The notes beneath the pieces are model-generated. The model did no database searches. It was given only the letters and a program-made list of their open reading frames with translations, and was not told where the DNA came from. DNA of 64,000 bases from Chrysoperla carnea. Its lineage: Eukaryota; Arthropoda; Insecta; Neuroptera; Chrysopidae. The stretch spans positions 2,295,001 through 2,359,000 of the forward strand of contig NC_058338.1 in the NCBI RefSeq assembly GCF_905475395.1, written 5' to 3'. A program made the position numbers and the translations under genes. Shown here piece by piece: positions 1 to 59,927 of this stretch (within the stretch, counting starts at the first letter, position 1; every line of letters starts with the position of its first letter).

Positions 1-575
1 AGTATCTTCACCGATTGGATCTGGAGGTCCTATACTACGTCCTGGTAATTTTGCACCCGACCAACCACGTTCGATGGGACTTAATTTGATGCGACGAAAT
101 GTACCCATTTCGTCACGCATTTTAATTAAACGATTCTCGTAATCTGGATCGGTAGGGAGTTTTTGTTGCTGCACGAGCTCCCGTCCACGCATTATTGGTG
201 CGGATAAACCTGGCCATAATATATTCGCTTTACCGACACCAATTACTTGGCCACGATTTAAATTTTTTGCTACTTTTTTACTAGAACCTTTTCCTCGACC
301 ACGCTTTTTACCAGCATTACTTACAGATGTTACACCTTTCCAAATTTGCTCAGCAGGCACTGTGCATAAAAATTTTTAGATTTAATTTTTGGGGGTTTTA
401 AAGGTTATGTTTGCGAAAGATTTCCCAACTTACATTTATTAAAAAAACTTGTGGTATTTCTTGTGCAGTTTTTCAATATTAATGTGTTTCCTGTGGGACT
501 GAGCAAATAATTTTTGGGTAAATTTTGAGCACATTTTGTTATTAAATGACAAGCTTTCAATATTTTCGTGGCCAT
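1..575 (-). CDS. mRpS5: Mitochondrial ribosomal protein S5 (uS5m), 5' part; two coding exons, 3' end outside window
   Basis: Small-subunit protein of the mitochondrial ribosome. Exon 1 is 575 down to 434 (ATG at 575-573, donor gtaagt at 433-428). A 74-bp intron follows, with its acceptor AG at 361-360. Exon 2 runs from 359 to the window edge. The split codon T|TG gives Leu, joining ...TTSFFNK to LPAEQIWKG, which is the N-terminal signature of animal MRPS5. Exon 2 continues with a basic GKKRGRGKG stretch, DLNRGQ-like NLNRGQVIGVGKANILWPGL, and ends in ERGWSG...GPPDP, all characteristic of the family. About 167 residues are visible. The start, MATKILKACHLITKC, is basic and lacks acidic residues, as expected for a mitochondrial targeting peptide. 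The conserved S5 RNA-binding domain itself is downstream, outside the window. Identification is from recalled family sequence. The intron and start are inferred from splice signals and phase. Confidence 0.93.
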
Positions 576-926
576 TTTTTTTTTGTTACGTCAAATAAAT
601 TTGTCGGTAGCAAAACATCGACAAACAAAATGATTGCATAATAAATGTTGAGTTATTTTGGTTCAAATGTTTGGTTTAACTTTAAAGATCAATTAAAAGA
701 TTATTTTTATTAATTAAAAAGAACAATATTTAATTTGTAAAGGTGTTCATAATGACGCTTGAGGCTGGCTTTAAGTGTTTAGCTGAAAAAAATAGAACTA
801 TGTGTAGCGTCAAATTTAAAAGATGTAACTTCATGATGACGCTTGACGCTGGCTTTGACGTCAAATTAGGAATCCACCTACCAGAAAAAAATAGAAATAT
901 ATCCAGAGTCAAATTGTAAAAAGGAG
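576..926. other. mRpS5 upstream region with GCGTCAAATT-type direct repeats
   Basis: AT-rich sequence just upstream of the mRpS5 start, so it probably includes its promoter and 5' UTR, but I can name no core element. From about 745 to 920 two related units follow each other (GACGCTTGAGGCTGGC near 754 and GACGCTTGACGCTGGC near 838), each ending in a GTCAAATT block. A related block, GCGTCAAATTAAGAATCC, lies on the other side of the foldback element near 4663. The foldback therefore appears to have inserted among pre-existing copies of this small repeat. Confidence 0.45.
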
Positions 927-1359
927 CGACAAAAAACCACAATATAGTTAGCGTGGAATATTAATAAAATTTATTAAATCATATATCAAAAAATTGCTCT
1001 CTAAATGCTCCATCAGATTCCAAAATTGCTCCAATTATTAAATTATCAATTAATTAAATATTTGCAATTAAAAATACAAAATTTTATTTTCCAATATTTC
1101 AGTAAATTGATAGTTTTTCCTAACGTTTTTGCTATCAATAAATTGCTCCCGTTTATTTCTTTCGGGATATAACAATAACGATTTATAAATATCTATTATT
1201 TTTGCATAATTAATTAAAATTAATAATTGCAATTCAAACAGGTATGTGATGACGTCATTCACAAGGGGAATGTCATAAACTGGGGGGAGCGGGAAGGGAA
1301 AGAAAAACAAAAAAGAAATAATAATAGAAAGTAAATAATTAGATGTATCAGTGAAAAAT

Positions 1360-2735
1360 ATCAAAAAATTGCTCCGTAAATACTCTTTCAGATTCCAAAG
1401 TTGCTCCAGTCATATAATTAATATGTAATTAAATATTTTCAATTAAAAATACAAAATTTTACATACACAAAGGGGATGGGGGGAAGCATGAAAATATATA
1501 ACAATAGATTGTAGTTATTATCTATGGTTATGATATTTGTTTTATTTAATTAAATATTAAAAGAAAATAAACAATCATATGTATCAGCGGAAAGTATCAA
1601 AAAATTGCTCCGTAAATACTCTTTCAGATTCCAAAGTTGCTCCAGTTATATAATTAATATGTAATTAAATATTTTCAATTAAAAATACAAAATTTTACAT
1701 ACACAAGGGGGATGGGGGGAAACATGAACATATATTCCGATAGATTGTAGTTATTATCTATGGTTATGATATTTGTTTTATTTAATTAAATATTAAAAGA
1801 AAATAAACAATCATATGTATCAGCGGAAAGTATCAAAAAATTGGTCCGTAAATACTCTTTCAGATTCCAAAGTTGCTCCAGTTATATAATTAATATGTAA
1901 TTAAATATTTTCAATTAAAAATACAAAATTTTACATACACAAGGGGAATGGGGGGAAACATGAACATATATTACGATAGATTGTAGTTATTATCTATGGT
2001 TATGATATTTGTTTTATTTAATTAAATATTAAAAGAAAATAAACAATCATATGTATCAGCGGAAAGTATCAAAAAATTGCTCCGTAAATACTCTTTCAGA
2101 TTCCAAAGTTGCTCCAGTTATATAATTAATATGTAATTAAATATTTTCAATTAAAAATACAAAATTTTACATACACAAGGGGAATGGGGGGAAACATGAA
2201 CATATATTACGATAGATTGTAGTTATTATCTATGGTTTTGATATTTGTTTTATTTAATTAAATATTAAAAGAAAATAAACAATCATATGTATCAGCGGAA
2301 AGTATCAAAAAATTGCTCCGTAAATACTCTTTCAGATTCCAAAGTTGCTCCAGTTATATAATTAATATGTAATTAAATATTTTCAATTAAAAATACAAAA
2401 TTTTACATACACAAGGGGAATGGGGGGAAACATGAACATATATTCCGATAGATTGTAGTTATTATCTATGGTTATGATATTTGTTTTATTTAATTAAATA
2501 TTAAAAGAAAATAAACAATCATATGTATCAGCGGAAAGTATCAAAAAATTGCTCCGTAAATACTCTTTCAGATTCCAAAGTTGCTCCAGTTATATAATTA
2601 ATATGTAATTAAATATTTTCAATTAAAAATACAAAATTTTACATACACAAGGGGAATGGGGGGAAACATGAAAATATATAACGATGGATTGTAGTTATTA
2701 TCTATGGCTGTGATATTTGTTTATTTAATTTTTTT
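1360..2735. repeat. 236-bp tandem array, left arm of foldback (about 5.8 copies)
   Basis: The motif ATCAAAAAATTGCTCCG recurs at 1360, 1596, 1832, 2068, 2304 and 2540, an exact 236-bp period. Copies differ by only a few bases, for example ggtccg for gctccg near 1842. A more diverged relative of the unit's start (ttgctctctaaatgctcc) lies in the outer arm near 993, so the array seems to have grown from the arm sequence. Confidence 0.93.
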
Positions 2736-2844
2736 TTTGAGGTTAATTATATCATTTTTATTCGCCGTTGTATTTTCATTAAAACATTTTTAATTTAAAT
2801 AATGTTTCAATAAGTTACTTGAAGAATAATTATTTATTGTAAAG

Positions 2845-3253
2845 ATGGTTGTAAAAGGTGAGTCGACAAACCTTTATTTGTTTACATAAATTATCGACGT
2901 CTTAGGTTATTTGTTTATAAACTTTTATTTTATTTATATATAATTATATTGTTGAATTTTCAGTTTTCAGATACAAATATTGGCAAGCAGTTGGACTAAA
3001 ATTATATTTCTAAAAAGAGATCAATCATCGAGATGATATTGAATCCGGACAATTCCTATAACTCGCCGATGTACCTATTAACCCGAATGTTGAATGGAAA
3101 CCTATGGAAATATCTGACCAAGGCATTGTAATTACTAATTTCTCATGCTTTCTATCGTTAGTATGTTTTATTGCGTAGAATTAGTTTTAATTTTTATTAT
3201 TATTACTTTTTTCAGTTATGAAAATACTGATTCGTCAAAACACTTACGGAAAA
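2845..3253 (+). pseudogene. Decayed spliced gene fragment in the foldback loop, unrecognised
   Basis: Reading from ATG at 2845, four codons (MVVK) end at a consensus donor gtgagt (2858). An acceptor, ttttcag, ends at 2963. The frame then continues in phase across 2964-3160 (VFRYKYWQAVGLKLYF, then KEINHRDDIESGQFL, then LADVPINPNVEWKPMEISD). It is interrupted only by TAA at 3011-3013 and TAA at 3059-3061. A second donor-like gtatgt follows at 3161 and an acceptor ttttttcag lies near 3216, but phase after that join gives an immediate stop. The non-random composition and intron signals suggest a host gene fragment picked up by the element and then broken. I do not recognise the protein. It could also be a remnant of the element's own gene. 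Confidence 0.4.
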
Positions 3254-3666
3254 GCTGACCGAGCACTTTTTATGGATTTTCAATGTTTTATCAAATAAAT
3301 TAAAGGTGGAAATAATATTATATAAATCTATTGAAAATAAATTTTAGAAGTAAATTATTTATGTACATATTAAGTGAAAACAAATAAACATATTATTAAT
3401 AAACAAACAGATTGCACATATTAATTACATTTTATATTTTTTTACATTTTGGCCCGCTCAAAATAATAATAATGCTTTTGTGAGAACTTATTCAAAGTCT
3501 CGGAAGTGCCAAAGTTGATATAATTAACGCTATATATACATAAAAAACGGTTTTTGGCCAATATTTCAACAACCAACTGGATGAAAAAAAGGTTCAAACA
3601 AAAATTGTCGAAAATTTTTTTTCCTAAGAAAAATGTAGAATAAAAAATTGTGATATCTCAAGTCAT

Positions 3667-4104
3667 TTTAATATTTAATTAAATAAAACAAATACCATAA
3701 CCATAGATCATAACTACAATCTATTGTTATATATTTTCATGTTTCCCCCCATTCCCCTTGTGTATGTAAAATTTTGTATTTTTAATTGAAAATATTTAAT
3801 TACATATTAATTATATAACTGGAGCAACTTTGGAATCTGAAAGAGTATTTACGGAGCAATTTTTTGATACTTTCCGCTGATACATATGATTGTTTATTTT
3901 CTTTTAATATTTAATTAAATAAAACAAATATCATAACCATAGATAATAACTACAATCTATCGTAATATATGTTCATGTTTCCCCCCATTCCCCTTGTGTA
4001 TGTAAAATTTTGTATTTTTAATTGAAAATATTTAATTACATATTAATCATATGACTGGAGCAACTTTGGAATCTGAAAGAGTATTTACGGAGCAATTTTT
4101 TGAT
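3667..4104. repeat. Inverted 236-bp array, right arm of foldback (about 1.8 copies)
   Basis: Reverse complement of the left-arm unit. The boundary motif TTTTTTGAT ends at 3869 and again at 4104, a 235-bp period. The right array is about 4 units shorter than the left, so the arms are asymmetric and the extra left units cannot pair with partners. Confidence 0.9.
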
Positions 4105-4739
4105 ATTTTTCACTGATACATCTAATTATTTACTTTCTATTATTATTTCTTTTTTGTTTTTCTTTCCCTTCCCGCTCCCCCCAGTTTATGACATTCCCCT
4201 TGTGAATGACGTCATCACATACCTGTTTGAATTGCAATTATTAATTTTAATTAATTATGCAAAAATAATAGATATTTATAAATCGTTATTGTTATATCCC
4301 GAAAGAAATAAACGGGAGCAATTTATTGATAGCAAAAACGTTAGGAAAAACTATCAATTTACTGAGATATTGGAAAATAAAATTTTGTATTTTTAATTGC
4401 AAATATTTAATTAATTGATAATTTAATAATTGGAGCAATTTTGGAATCTGATGGAGCATTTAGAGAGCAATTTTTTGATATATGATTTAATAAATTTTAT
4501 TAATATTCCACGCTAACTATATTGAACTCGACAAAAAACAAAATAGTTTAGTAATCCATAACGAAATTTTTTTCCCGCCCAGATGGCAGCACGACCTAAA
4601 CTGACCACGTGACCTAATTTGACGCTCAAGTTCAGCGTCAAGCGTCATCAACGTTAGCTTTGAGCGTCAAATTAAGAATCCACTTAACTGAAAAGAATTA
4701 TGTCCATTTACAGTTTTGGAAAAAATGAACATCAAAGTT

Positions 4740-4905
4740 TTGACCTAATTTTCACCTTCACAAATAAACAATGATCTTTGCGAAAAAATGTTTCGAACAA
4801 AAGTTGTTTATTTTCTATAAGGAATAACTTTTACAATTAAAATTTTTTCTTACGGTTTACAAAATGGATCCAAGACCAAAACTTGTTATCTTTTTTCGTT
4901 TTTGA
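4740..4905 (-). repeat. Inverted partial copy of the CCGTCC/CACTTGT dispersed repeat
   Basis: Contains, reversed, the blocks AACAACTTTTGTTTGAA, GTAAACCGTT and ACTCAAAAACGAAAA that occur in forward order at 4975-5190. Together with that copy it forms a head-to-head foldback of about 0.45 kb immediately right of the large foldback element. No coding potential. Confidence 0.6.
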
Positions 4906-5405
4906 GTTATCGTATTGTCAGATAGACGTATGTCTGTCTGTCTGACTACCTGTCGTCTGTCCATCTGTCATTACGATTACTCAAAAACGAAAAGAGATAT
5001 CAAGCTGAAATTTTTACAGTGTGCTTAAGACGTAAAAAGTGAGGTCGAGTTTGTAAATGTAAAATGAGTCAATTGGGTCTTGGATCCGTAGGACCCATTT
5101 TTTGTAAACCGTTAGAGATAGAACAAATGTTTAAATGTAAAAAATGTTCCTTATAAAAAAATAAACAACTTTTGTTTGAAATATTTTCTTGTAAACATCA
5201 CTGTTTACCCACGAGGGCGCTAATTAGGTGAAAATTTTGTAGTATGTATTGATATGGGAATATCAGTTACATGTGTGTGTGGCTATTTAAGAGTGGAAAT
5301 CTTTCTTTATTTACGTGACGCCAAAAAACAAACGATTGCGTCATCAAAACTGTCTATACATGGTATTTCAACAATTAACTCAGTCAATTGTTTGTTTTCA
5401 CTTGT
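4906..5405 (+). repeat. Dispersed non-coding repeat (CCGTCC/CACTTGT family), copy 1
   Basis: Shares in order with copies at 42653-43174 and 61474-61984: a CTGTCTGTC-rich block, ACTCAAAAACGAAAAGAGAT, TTTTTACAGTGTGCTTAAG, GGTCTTGGATCCGTAGGACC, GTAAACCGTTAGAGATAG, ACATCACTGTTTACCC, GAGGGCGC, and the right end CAATTGTTTGTTTTCACTTGT. No long ORF, and I see no terminal inverted repeats or clear target duplication, so the class is undetermined. Confidence 0.8.
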
Positions 5406-5918
5406 AGTCAATGTATATTTTTTGATAAATATCCTTAGCTGACCCAAGCAATTACCTCAGTTTTTGGCACACCTTTCACTGTACAGAAAGATAAGTGATG
5501 CTCAGTCTAGGTATTATAATGTCAAAGTATTTTACACAGTATGCGTGTAGTTTTAAACAAAATTATATAGATGTCACTTTCATTATTTTATGTATGTTCA
5601 AAAAATATCCACTAGAGACCGTTAGCGTTAGAAAAATATAAGATCTTTTTTGATGTTGCTTACCCTTAAAAAAAAAAAAAAACTTTTTCACAAACTCATA
5701 GAAAAATTATTAAAGTGTTATTATAACCAAATGTATACGTGAATAAAAATTGAGACAATTTTAAAATCGAAAAACTCGAATTTTATTTATTTTTGTTATT
5801 CTTCATTACAATTTTCTAAAAAGTGTGTGAATTACATTGAATTGTGTGTTTTTTTTTGTATTATCAAACTCTTTATCCCAGCCAATATCAATGGCGGATC
5901 GACAAATGTGCTAGCAAA
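5406..5918 (+). promoter_or_regulatory. Presumed BRUCE upstream region and 5' UTR
   Basis: AT-rich, with an A-tract near 5669. An acceptor-like ctctttatcccag ends at 5880. Downstream of it, a 7-codon upstream ORF (ATG 5891, TAG 5912-5914, peptide MADRQMC) ends five bases before the BRUCE start. If the mRNA includes it, this short ORF could modulate initiation, but where the transcript begins cannot be seen. No core promoter motif is called. Confidence 0.35.
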
Positions 5919-8900
5919 ATGGCTCAAGAATTGTGGTCACTCAAAGAAGATGGTTATTTAAATGTTGATTTAACAACGAAAAATATTGTTTATCATCCTG
6001 CATTAAATATCATTCTTGTTATTACACGGAATGGCAGTGTACATGTTTTGGATGTGAATTCTGGCTTTATTTTGCAAACAAGTAATCTTTCTGGTACGTA
6101 ATTTTGGTTATATTTTTTTATTATGCTGTTAAATTTCAATGATTTCGCCAAAATTTATTCATCTCGAAAGGTTTCTCGCAGATAACTATCCTCGAATAGA
6201 CGACATGTCATTGTATTTTTATTGTTTTAATTCTTTTAACGCCTGTTTTCGGCACTTTAAAGTGTTTTTTTTTTTTTGAGTTTAAACTTATCTCCGTTGT
6301 AGAAATTATTTCCGTGAGTTCTTATCAATTGTGAATCATTTGTGGGAAATCCCCTAGTAATTTGATTAAGGCGTATTCTTAAATAGGAGCTGTCATAATT
6401 TCGTAAACATATTTGAAAGGGTTTCGATATGTAAACAAAAAATTTCTGAAAAAAATATTAAGACGTCATGAGCCTTGAACAGGAATTCTTAATGTTTTAT
6501 TAATTTCTGAAATATATTGCTAGAAAATTTTCTAGATCTAACTAAAAAAAAAAAAAAATATTAGAAGTTTTCAAAAATTGTCAAAGCTTTTAAAAGTTAT
6601 TAAGGCCCTTTAACCTGAAAAGCCTGTTGAGTGAAGGAAACTCGCTCGGTAACAGCGCCGAGGAGATCTTGAAACTAACCAAAGCTGATATTAGAGTCAT
6701 CGTAGAGTTACTTACAGGGCATGATAACCTGAACAAGTTCCAACATCAGATTGGAAAAAGACAATCTCCTGCGTGTGACAGTTGCGGAGAAAATTCAGAA
6801 GAAACATCGATCCACTTTCTCTGTTACTGTCCGGCGCTCATACAGCAGCGAAGGAAATGGTTTGGTCCGGACATAATCGAACCAGAAGAAATTAAGAAAC
6901 TCAGCGCTAGGCAAATCCTGGGTTTCAATACATCCGTTGGTTATAATAGCCACTGAAAAATGTAGCGGGGATAGAGTACAAGGGTCTATTTGGCTAAGTG
7001 CTCTGAATCATTGCTTCGAGGCGCGATGCTCGAGCATGGCCCGCTAACCTCCATACCATACCATACCAAGGCTCTTTAACAAAATTTTTTTAAGGTTAAA
7101 AAACACACCTAATCGAGGAAATGAGGCATTTGACTCAGGAATCAACTCCTGGTTGTCAGTGGATTTTTGGAAAATGTTTGTCTGAGTGTATTCAATAAAA
7201 TCATATTCTTGTGAACTTGTGCTTTTTCGATTTACGCACAAAAAGTGGGGCAGAAATTCCCTACTTCCGGGCAATACATTTTCTTTATTTAAGATTTAAA
7301 AAACATTTTTGGATCCTTGACAATTTATCCCAAACTTCACCATTTTCGAAATGTTTGAACAAAAAGAGTACGGGTTTTGCCGAAAATTCGTTACTGACGA
7401 GAATAAAGATTATTTTATAGTTTTTGTCCAAAATTTAAATTGAGAACGGCGCCGCTTGGCATTTTGCATGCAAAGATGGGTGGATTTGTCGTAGCCATTC
7501 CTTACTGTAGGAATGACAAGCTGAGGAGAAAGAGCCGTTTCAGACAACTCCTGTCGTTAGCCTTGACTGTGTTATTCAGTCTCGGGGACAAAAATTAGGC
7601 CTGATTATCTGAAATATGAATTTCTGTTTGAAAATCGTCGCATATAGACCCAAGAAGAATCGATTCTTTTATTCTAGGTCCTTTAGCTGTTCTTAAATGA
7701 ATTTCAAAGTACAAATTTAATTTAAATAAATTGGCCTTGAAATTTTATCAAGGGCAGTTCGTCAAGAATAGATTCTCATTATTCCATTTTGAAAAGTGAA
7801 TTTCTCTTTTCACAGCTGGTTCGAATGCAAATATAAAATGTCGTTACCTAGAAGATCAAAATAAAATCTTATTCACCGATGGACATGGAATTGGAATGCG
7901 ATCAGATTACAACGGCGTTTTATTATTGGACACAATATTACAGCGCCGTTTAAAATGTAGCGATGACGTTGTTAAGCTAGAATTACTCTTGTCTGAGGTA
8001 AGTCACCTTTTTTTCTCTTTTTAATATCTAACATTCTGCTGTAATTGCGTCGATGAGCGAGAAAAATTTATGATTTAACGATTTGAAGGATTTTGCTCTA
8101 TCAAACGCAAATTTCATCCTATTTTAACAAACCAAGTATGTAATTCCACTAATTTTGGGCCATACTTTTCAAAATTTTAGTCAAATGTAACGTTATTGCA
8201 ATACTTTTCAAAATTTAACTACTTTTGTTTCCTTAAAGGCTCAAGGAGTGATATAAGCGACATAGTAACAAGAAAAACGGAAAATACGACCCAAAATTAG
8301 TATGATTAAAAAAAAAATTCATTCAAATTGAACAAAATTTGGCCAAGATATCCAAAAAATTGATTTTTTATACTTTATGACGTCACTAAAATTCAAAGAA
8401 TTTGATTTTGCTCTATCACACCCAAATTTTATCCTATTTTAATAAACCAAGTATGTAATCCCACTAATTTTGGGCCATAATTTTCAAATTTCTAGTCAAA
8501 TTTAACGTTATTGCAGTATTTTTCAAAATTTAACTACCGTTGTTTCCTCATTTGACTCAAGGAATGATATAAGCGACATACTAACAAGAAAAATGGAAAA
8601 TACGACCCAAAATTAGTATGTTTCAAAAAAAATTTCATTCAAATCGAACAAATTTTGGCCAAGATATCCAAAAAATTGATTTTTTATACTCTATGACGTC
8701 ACTAAAATCCAAAAAAATGTATTTTGCTCTATCACACTCAAATTTTATCTTATTTTAATGAACCAAGTATGTAATCCCACTAATTTTGTGCCATAATTTT
8801 CAAATTTCTAGTCAAATTTAACGTTATTGCAATATTTTTCAAAATTTAACTACTAGATATTCATTAAATGACTCAGATACTTATTGATAAATTCGTTTCT

Positions 8901-10231: not shown

Positions 10232-13200
10232 GTAACGTAATATTTTATATTTATTTAATGTGTAAAACACGGGAATTTGTTTTTTTTCAACTTTGTAAGC
10301 TTTCCATTTCTTTGCGTCACGCGTAAATCGTCAGGTTATTGAAATATAAACTTTTTAGCGTGTAATTAACTTATCGATTTTTTTTTACTAATCTGATCGT
10401 CTGTCCTACGCGCATGAGCTTCAAAAAATTTGCATTATAACGAAAATTTATCACAGATTCTGCTTATGCAAAAAAAAAAAAAAAAACATTACCTTACGGC
10501 GCTTTCCAAAAAGAAAACATAGGAAAACTTTGGTTTTTATCGCTTTTTCGATATTTTAGAGCGTTTTTTTACATTTACGTTATACAAATTGCCTAATTGA
10601 TTAGTCACGTGACAGCCTTTAAAAAGAATATTGGATTTTTAGATGGCCACATATGGATTACAAATGGGCATTACCAGAACAAATGGCACAAGCTGGTTTC
10701 TACCATCAACCAAATAGTTCTGGTGATGATCGTGCAATGTGTTTCACGTGTGCAGTGTGTTTAGTATGTTGGGAACGAACAGATGAACCATGGAGTGAAC
10801 ATGAAAGACATTCACCAAGTTGTCCATTCGTTAAAGGTGAATACACACAAAACGTTCCATTATCTGTTACATATGCAACGGTACCCGCTGTAGATGTTAC
10901 GAATCTATTGACGACATCGTCAAATCATCAAACATCATCATCACCACCACCATGTACAGATGTTACAATTATATCGCAAACAAATGTACAAGATATGATT
11001 GCGTTTGGGCATAAAAATGGAATGGTAACGGTTTACAATATTAGTGGAAAATTAAAGCGAACGCATTGTTTTTATGTCACACAATATGATACAATTACGG
11101 CTGTTACATCAAGTATTCAACCATCGTCTGGAACCAATCAACAAGTGGGAACAACGGGTGTAGCTGGGACAACAACCACCATCGCTACAGAAAATTCACA
11201 TAATATTTTATTAAAACGAGGTAAGATCTTATTCCTAACACTCGAACTAAAAAAAAAAGGGATGTGTGTGTACTTTATTTCTTCGAATATTTGTATTTTT
11301 GGAATAAAATGAATATTTTAAATTTCAGATAACATAACGTTAACATCTCTATGTGTGGTCGGTGATAAACTAACACGAAATTCACGTGGAGGAAACACGA
11401 AAACAACATCATCACACGATAAAAATATTATCAATAACTCCACATCAATACAAACAAAAAATGTATCGAAATTACGTCCATCAATAATATGCGGTATCAC
11501 TGTAGTACATTCATCATCTACGGCGGCTACTACATCACCTAGTGATCAAGATACAACAAAACCGAACAAATCTTTATATTTAGTTGTTTACGATTTTCAA
11601 TATAAATCAGCAGCGAGTGCTTCATCACCAGAACAAATCATTGCAACAGGTGGTGGTACAACTACATCATCACCAGCAGTAGCTGGTGATTCAACTCCAT
11701 ATGAATATCTAATTAAACAGTGTAATGATATTCTAACGACGAAAATATGTGACATCGAGGATAAAACAAAAGAAACTACTGAACCTTTTGTTGTTTGTAA
11801 TGATCTTTCACCGAAGAGCTATCAGAATTTGATACCAACGTCAGATGATAAAATATTTTTACCACCTGACGATAAATTTACAATGAGTGATGTGAAATCA
11901 CTATGTCCAGGTAAGATATCGTTTACCTTTTTGTTTACTTATAAATTTAAGTAAGGTATGCTATGTCCGTCAATTTATTGTCAGTTTCAAACAATAGATG
12001 GTATGTTGGCCCGAAGTGTGGTCTGACTATATGAAGAGATGCTGATCAAGGACAGATCTAGACACCTTTCAGAATGACGATTAAGAAACAGTCACATATT
12101 GACCAAAAGAAATCGATTTCTTTATTCTATGTCCATAAACTCCTGCACCAGATACTTCTCTGGCCCTTAGAAAGAAGTCTTAGGGCTGCTTAAAATAAAT
12201 AATAATAATTACATCTAAAAAATGTGTGTTCCGTTAGGTCCACCTGGAGATTCACATGGTAATGGTCCAAGAATATGTAACGATGACGATTTATTAGATA
12301 CCACTTACATTGACTACACTTTTACAAACGGTGGAGGAGATGATCAATTATTAGATGATGACGATGAAGAAGATGATGATAGTCGAACCCCCGTTGAAGA
12401 TGATTACGATGAAGAAGCAACAACGACACAACCACATCAAAAATATATCTCCGATCATATCACAGAGATGAAATTAAAAGGGGAACAAAAGTTATTAACC
12501 TATTCACATGCTGTCCAATGTATACGAATCGATGTCGACGATGAGAATCTAGAAATCGTCGAAATTATCCCTATCAAAAGTACTGGGAGTCATATTTTAG
12601 TAATCTTACGTAATGTTAATGAAAAACAATTAATTGATGGTAAATGTATTTTATTGATATATTCATTAAATTTTACGGCAACTTCGTCAACACCACGTGG
12701 TGATTTAGTTAAAATTGATGAAGTACCAATCTTACGTAAAGAATTATTAAGTATGGAGGAACCAGAGGAATTAATTATTTTACCACAATGTTTTGATGGT
12801 CATGATACCAATCATTTTACAATATCACAAGCACCTGGTGCACCATCTACAGGTGGTTCTATGAATGCGGCTCAATCACAAATAAATGGTTTAGCTGCTA
12901 TGGTATGTGTGGATGGATGTGTTCGATTATTGGACTTGTCTACGTTGAGTATTGTTTCTGAGGCAAAAACTCCTGGAGCACGATATGTATCGTTAACTTA
13001 TTGTAATAGTAAGTATTGTTTTTCATTTAAATTATGGAGGTGGTAGATGAGGCAGTGTCCGATTAGGGAGTATCTTGGCAGGCTCACTTGAAAGGGGTGT
13101 TTGAGACGACCCCTCTCGTCTTAACGAACTCGCTGTTTGGTTCCATTTAACGCCAGAGTGGCTCGGTTCCCAAATCAGGCGTCAATTCGATCACTAGATT

Positions 13201-59440: not shown

Positions 59441-59752
59441 AAACTCCAGGCATGCGTCGAAGCTAACACATTCAAGTTTTACTTGCTGCTTTTCCAATAA
59501 AAAAAATGAAATTGACCTTGGTTTCACTTTAAAATAATAATGCCTGAATCGTTTAAAATGAATCATTCAGTATGTGTATAATAAATACAGTATTATGAAA
59601 AAATTTATGTGTGAGGATGCCAATTCCATTTTCTTAGTACCATGAAATTGTATACGATTAGGGATTGAATTGATTTATGTTTTATAAAAACTAAAAAGTA
59701 CTGTTGTTCTGAAACCTAGCATCGAAAAATTATAAAAAGAAGAAGTGTAAGT

Positions 59753-59927
59753 GCTAAAATAAGGGTTTAATCTTGACGTGCAATTGTTATAATAAAGTTA
59801 TTCCTTATATAAAAATAAACAACTTTTGTTTGAAACATTGCTAAAATAAGGGATTACTCTTGACGTACAATTGTTATAATAAAGTTATTCCTTATATAAA
59901 AATAAACAACTTTTGCTTGAAACATTT
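59753..59927. repeat. 87-bp tandem duplication, two copies
   Basis: GCTAAAATAAGGGTTTAATC (59753) and GCTAAAATAAGGGATTACTC (59840) start the two units, each ending in AAACAACTTTTGTTTGAAAC-like sequence, which is also a block of the CCGTCC/CACTTGT repeat family. Confidence 0.85.

Follow-up and report, generated by a model that had tools for sequence, protein, structure and literature searches.

A foldback transposon of probable Rehavkus type between mRpS5 and a BRUCE-like gene of Chrysoperla carnea, and a USP-like domain predicted in its full-length relatives

What is the large inverted structure with satellite-like arms that separates two divergent genes of Chrysoperla carnea, mRpS5 on the minus strand and a BRUCE-like gene on the plus strand, and how did it come to be there? 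The question arises from a first-pass annotation of a stretch of 64,000 nucleotides (hereafter the window, C2:2,295,001-2,359,000 within the 559-Mb genome), which described a 3.6-kb foldback element and correctly placed it in the shared upstream region of the two genes, the gene with the BIR-domain frame at 10623-11312 being one that we take to be BRUCE. Within the window the element extends from 936 to 4528, limits that were read off other copies of its family, in the order outer domain, six 236-bp units, 935-bp core, two inverted units and inverted outer domain. The features of the locus are as follows.

1-360, minus strand: mRpS5 coding part (uS5m N-terminal domain, E 8.5e-46)
726-926: left part of the older dispersed repeat into which the element inserted, with an internal periodicity of about 99 bp
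927-935: left copy of the 9-bp target-site duplication CGACAAAAA, present as a single copy at paralogous empty sites
936-1315, plus strand: left terminal inverted repeat, outer domain, beginning ACCACAATATAGTTAGCGTGG, with 47 related termini genome-wide
983-1086, plus strand: outer-domain stretch matching a portion of the 236-bp units at about 86% identity, the likely seed of the array
1316-2730, plus strand: left array of six 236-bp units
2731-3665: core, the same DNA that lies inside both inverted arms of full-length copies
3666-4148, minus strand: right array of two 236-bp units
4149-4528, minus strand: right terminal inverted repeat, outer domain
4525-4527: right tip altered to AAC, TGG being the sequence in the other two-ended copies
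4529-4537: right copy of the 9-bp target-site duplication
4538-4737: right flank entered in the empty-site comparison; the dispersed repeat runs on into about its first 34 bp in four of seven copies
10623-11312, plus strand: open frame with a BIR domain (E 1.1e-19), part of the BRUCE-like gene

The foldback structure is real, and both its inverted arms and its tandem 236-bp arrays were recovered. The arms pair 940-1798 with 3666-4524 (859 nt, 98% complementary), and the 423-bp near-identical outer inverted repeats reported at first are present but form merely the outermost part of this longer arm. The unit length and the asymmetry of the arrays also stand, with counts of 6.0 copies at 1316-2730 and 2.0 copies at 3666-4148 in place of 5.8 and 1.8. 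The direct repeats given as 10 bp long (927-936 and 4529-4538) are a true duplication of 9 bp, at 927-935 and 4529-4537, since the tenth A belongs to the element on the left, as its first base, and to the flank on the right. Other copies set the ends of the element at ACCACAATATAG... (936) and ...T (4528). The right tip reads ..ATTGAACT in the window as against ..ATTGTGGT in the 10 other two-ended copies compared, and these three altered bases suggest that the window copy is immobile.

The outer arm is represented in the genome by at least 192 matching pieces (40 of 115 candidate places scored), and its 26-base terminus occurs 47 times within 3 mismatches in 559 Mb, the two of the window included, against 0 occurrences of the reversed pattern used as a control. 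Twenty stretches from 17 other places and 19 short stretches at the remaining termini were fetched. Together with two further variant ends, one in L018 and one in L022, the 47 termini gave 49 ends, of which 26 were paired by position into 13 elements and 23 stayed unpaired. Identical 9-bp flanks surround nine of the 13 (window, L010, L011, L012, L016/17, L018, L019, L020/21 and L022). An exact duplication is absent from L009, L014/15, L024 and L051/52; the last has an 8-bp match shifted by one base, and L014/15 is one of the two intact full-length copies. With 47 termini against none for the reversed pattern, and exact duplications at nine of the 13 paired elements, the family is not a product of chance. 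Judged by these sequences, the window element belongs, as a non-autonomous copy, to a family of DNA transposons present in low copy number. A chromosomal inversion between the neighbouring C3 copies L009 and L014/15, both without target-site duplication, was considered and rejected, as no pair passed the inversion test; their flanks match just at a one-base offset, in low-complexity sequence. Viral relatives were also sought, and none of the 47 pattern matches in viral contigs was confirmed.

The insertion site itself could be compared with related sequences, as the 210 bases preceding the element are part of a dispersed repeat with 279 candidate places, of which 40 were scored; seven of its copies were aligned to the window flanks joined over one target copy. 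By BLAST, L071-L074 span the junction at 83-90% identity, to 34 bases beyond, L075 crosses it with gaps at 72.5% identity, and the homology of L069 and L070 ends at the junction (two of the seven). In the multiple alignment the target 9-mer is found once at the site in all seven copies (exact in four, one base off in three), and no second copy with at most one mismatch lies near the site in any of them. These sites are paralogous, not allelic, and their single target copy shows that the second copy of the duplication came with the insertion. In L074 there is, in addition, a chance 9-mer match 254 bases from the site.

The window core recurs inside both arms of four longer copies, L014/15, L016/17, L019 and L020/21. 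Three of these are 11.1-11.5 kb long and L019 is 9.2 kb and degraded; in the full-length relatives about 147 bp more lie between core positions 536 and 537, and the inverted arms measure about 2.6-3 kb. The C3 copy (L014/15, 11,100 bp) has arms of 2,983 bp that are 100% identical, and the C1 copy (L016/17, 11,336 bp) is 99.6% identical to it over 10,720 bp, with 38 differing positions and one gap. Both carry an uninterrupted open reading frame (ORF) of 1,195 aa, one residue apart, which is broken in the full-length copy on C5 and interrupted by many stops in L019 on C6. The short copies, of which L009, L010 and L011 have the complete window core in common, are best read as deletion derivatives of this full-length form. 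Short copies differ in the orientation of the core, which reads plus in some of them and minus in the rest, but core flipping does not follow from this, because in a palindromic element the orientation of the core shows the direction of insertion alone. One member, L018, has a reverse-transcriptase ORF (RVT_1, E 4.3e-36) and a C2H2 zinc-finger ORF in place of the transposase. Capture of a host gene in the core, which would make the element a Pack-MULE, was dropped after the best core match unrelated to the full-length copies (C6:10410829, L049; 40 of 380 candidates scored) was followed up, as that place resembles a degraded relative, in which visual inspection recognized a unit-like stretch but no gene was clearly apparent.

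A search of the genome with the encoded protein returned at least 75 matching pieces (39 of 148 candidates scored), including three further families with long ORFs, L044 (1,069 aa), L046 (1,104 aa) and L048 (1,035 aa), whose proteins are 27-31% identical to the 1,195-aa one. With a length of 5.57 kb, the sibling element L047 has 146-bp units in its 422-bp arms and is flanked by a duplication of 9 bp, TATTTTCTA. In L046, the other sibling copy fetched, the left array is missing and the duplication was not found, and the L044/L045 family has tandem repeats, with no inverted arms found within the 6 kb fetched. Residues D366, D436 and E682 are invariant in all four proteins, and by analogy with Mutator motifs we take these to be the DDE triad; the assignment is a reading, since many other residues are invariant too. 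Pfam gave no meaningful match on the 1,195-aa protein, and its MULE domain appeared in L046 alone, below the cut-off (E 0.035), being absent from the other three, the 1,195-aa protein included. Neither a PHD finger nor a THAP domain was matched at E<=5, and no FLYWCH match appeared, in the Pfam searches of the four proteins.

The C-terminal domain, on the other hand, resembles ubiquitin-specific proteases (USPs), with good probability as far as profile comparison can tell, and the reading to be weighed against this is that it is not USP-like, the similarity being due solely to a zinc ribbon and a short His motif. With the C-terminal profile, 27 of the 28 distinct PDB sequences at E<=1 were ubiquitin carboxyl-terminal hydrolases (several variants of the same enzymes among them), the best being USP8 (E 0.00035) and the one non-USP match YfdQ, a preponderance that speaks for a USP; yet the matches cover profile positions 130-307, a stretch that starts at the zinc ribbon and takes in the His and Asn/Asp boxes but leaves the candidate Cys box outside, as the narrower reading would have it. 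That reading also gains from the Pfam UCH search, whose cut-off was reached by one of the four families, L046, where the match just passes (E 3.4e-5; 1.1e-6 with the C-terminal part alone) and the alignment shows an incomplete second Cys pair, and from a six-frame UCH search of the genome, in which none of the 48 matches listed lies at the transposon ORFs. When hhalign was used to compare the C-terminal part with one host USP from the same genome (UCH E 4.3e-45), the probability was 44% (P 0.00023), which is again modest for a USP; the alignment nevertheless joins the CxxC pairs, the GHY box and the Asn/Asp box in order, and the zinc-ribbon Cys pairs, His box and Asn/Asp box accordingly stand co-linear with those of the host enzyme. 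The N-terminal part gave 0.4% against this USP and no PDB match at E<=5, and a PDB search with a single protein one irrelevant match. Candidate residues of the domain are Cys937, His1153 and Asn1169. All four proteins keep the Cys and the His unchanged, as they do a CxxC pair within the domain and, upstream, the motif TCxFD, a putative counterpart of the USP Cys box that was aligned to a USP by none of the searches run. Taken together, the points on the two sides make it unlikely that the zinc ribbon and His motif account for the similarity alone.

Catalytic activity of the USP-like domain is held at a lower confidence than its assignment. We consider it possible, though somewhat short of probable, that all of the following hold jointly: the protein would be a Mutator/Rehavkus-type transposase fused to a catalytically competent USP; the USP would serve either to save the transposase from the proteasome or to change the ubiquitination of chromatin at the donor or target site; and the domain would be integral to the transposon lineage, since four families in one genome keep it. 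This fusion, located outside the window, seems the least familiar part of the system: among the papers listed in literature searches there was no report that joins a Mutator-type transposase with a USP or deubiquitinase domain, and the word "ubiquitin" was not found in those Rehavkus papers that were checked for it, which are part of the Rehavkus literature. A parallel exists in the deubiquitinases (VTD and OTU) of Helitrons, for which a role in shielding transposition proteins from the proteasome has been suggested (PMC9741609). Both are transposon proteins with a deubiquitinase domain, USP-like and predicted in our case, but the transposon class and the deubiquitinase class are different, and the candidate His stands before Asn/Asp here as compared with the Asp-x-His motif of VTD. 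If the USP-like domain is active, another class of transposons besides Helitrons would have a deubiquitinase of its own.

To return to the element in the window, we conclude with high confidence that 936-4528 is a non-autonomous foldback DNA transposon of the Mutator superfamily and the Rehavkus type, placed there by its features and not by comparison of proteins. Long inverted terminal arms with internal tandem repeats make it a foldback element, the duplication of about 9 bp is that of Mutator elements, and the tandem (mini)satellite in the inverted termini together with a single long ORF (1,195 aa here, 1,035-1,104 aa in the relatives) are those of Rehavkus. Among the Pfam matches of the four proteins, neither the FLYWCH plus clear MULE domain of Phantom nor the THAP domain of Galileo and the P superfamily was found. 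Rehavkus is the closest described kind: a review lists its elements with TIRs of 26-400 bp, duplications of 9 bp, a single ORF, a minisatellite and a PHD finger, states that very few of them are known, and takes Rehavkus as an outgroup to Mutator elements (PMC6446971). Rehavkus-1_TC from Tribolium castaneum, assigned to the MuDR superfamily in Repbase, is 9.5 kb long and bears 164-bp units in its inverted termini, in arrays of mostly five and eight monomers and none above nine (PMC10218199). Duplication length, terminal satellites and single long ORF are thus shared, while the unit is 236 bp instead of 164 bp, the arms reach 3 kb instead of 26-400 bp, a USP-like domain was found, and the PHD finger listed for Rehavkus was not matched. 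Because Rehavkus and the other copies are alike in this respect, unequal satellite-like arms are typical of the kind; the first-pass annotation had the class right, as the family copies, the 9-bp duplications, the paralogous empty sites and the full-length copies with their Mutator-like DDE pattern indicate, and its impression that the 236-bp units and the asymmetric array seem distinctive finds no support, given comparable ones in other copies, in the 146-bp sibling and in Rehavkus-1_TC.

Two further foldback elements bear comparison. Tetris of Drosophila virilis, structurally the closest parallel, has tandem units of about 220 bp between outer and inner arm domains, TSDs of 8-10 bp and 37 bp common to outer domain and unit, and no autonomous copy is reported there (PMC4079207). 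Tandem units in foldback arms are a feature of both, and outer domain and unit also overlap here, by about 104 bp at 86% identity; unlike Tetris, this family has full-length copies, and the long satellite arrays that Tetris units also form have no counterpart among the unit matches listed. Tm1 of Meloidogyne, a Phantom-type Mutator foldback with a MULE transposase (PMC3169594), is similar in its composite arms and 9-bp TSDs, but its transposase is 496 aa long with FLYWCH and a clear MULE domain, whereas the proteins here have 1,035-1,195 aa and neither domain above the cut-off.

Recruitment of the element, whether to regulate mRpS5 and BRUCE or to give rise to hairpin siRNAs, would be compatible with its origin as a transposon. 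The element does lie between the two divergent genes, and a read-through transcript could fold, as the arms are 98% complementary over 859 nt; being one of many copies, inserted within an older dispersed repeat and without an Rfam match over 1-6500 of the window, it is nevertheless improbable as a recruited element. The arms might instead merely look similar and belong to a foldback of another superfamily, for example a Galileo-like P element, since long inverted repeats that contain tandem repeats are described for Galileo as well (PMC4079207; PMC3573991). The 9-bp duplications, the DDE pattern of the encoded protein with its weak MULE similarity in one family, and the lack of THAP noted above make such an origin highly improbable. 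Long palindromes can be mis-assembled, and this element is one, but an artefact of assembly, or a pair of unrelated satellite arrays that happen to be inverted, is hardly credible when many places share the architecture while differing in their flanks and in their exact duplications, and when the target is single-copy in related repeats.

For a Rehavkus-type foldback transposon, the short form would have arisen by loss of the coding region, leaving one copy of the sub-terminal DNA, the core, between its two arms, and full-length copies would have supplied the transposase that mobilized it in trans, by cut-and-paste with a stagger of 9 bp. A partial duplication of the outer domain probably gave rise to the 236-bp units, which may be extra transposase-binding sites. 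The arms would be copied onto each other within an element, by gene conversion or fold-back repair, and unit numbers would drift by unequal recombination, giving arrays such as the 6-versus-2 of the window. As one genome holds both non-autonomous foldback copies and full-length copies with an uninterrupted ORF, cross-mobilization, the role of the arm units and homogenization of the arms within an element can all be tested there.

The copies themselves bear on these last steps. Left and right unit numbers are 6/2 in the window and 4/4, 5-6/3, 3/3, 2/3, 6/6, 7/6 and 5/5 in others. When 400 bp of the outer arm are compared, the two sides show no difference in five of 11 elements and 1-11 changes in the other six, and the nearest arms of different elements are 0-18 changes apart. 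Part of the arm identity reflects recent common descent, since the outer arm is identical in the window, L009 and L010, and likewise in L014/15 and L016/17. The arms of L020/21, identical to each other and at least 2 changes from every other element examined, point to arm-to-arm copying within an element. A search with the 236-bp unit, in which 40 of 138 candidates were scored, found at least 116 pieces, almost all of them close to a listed terminus, and none of the unit matches listed in that search formed an array longer than about 7 units. Units away from the listed termini were seen near C1:574,800 and C1:7,287,900.

A further family, encoding a protein related to the transposase-like protein of the full-length foldback copies, carries open frames of 1,082-1,083 residues at 17 places among the matches listed in the genome protein search. 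The two copies fetched (L044 and L045) are 99.3% identical, and inverted arms were not found in the 6 kb fetched, which suggests that this family was recently active and perhaps has a different end structure.

Three members of the foldback family itself (L009, L014/15 and L050) share a stretch of no more than 70 kb close to an end of C3 (C3:93,827,013-93,896,564). Flank comparison of paired ends found no target duplications at the complete members of this cluster, L009 and L014/15, which may reflect rearrangement. Another family copy, L018, contains a zinc-finger frame between its arms, which could have been captured or nested:

L018:1423-2841, + strand, uninterrupted C2H2 zinc-finger ORF of 472 aa
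L018:5287-8070, reverse-transcriptase ORF beside the zinc-finger ORF

Around the window element, three other repeats were located:

Window 726-926 and 4620-4700, dispersed repeat with internal periodicity of ~99 bp
Window 4733-5239, imperfect inverted repeat (115-nt arms, 71%), right of the foldback element in the same intergenic region
Window 8088-8853, tandem repeat with a 316-bp unit present in 2.4 copies at 91% matches, between the foldback element and the BIR-domain frame

The dispersed repeat holds GACGCTTGACGCTGGCTTTGACGTC-like words, and its genome search returned 279 candidate places, 40 of which were scored. The inverted repeat is MITE-like in appearance; words resembling it were also seen, by eye, in a tandem unit at window 59752-59926.
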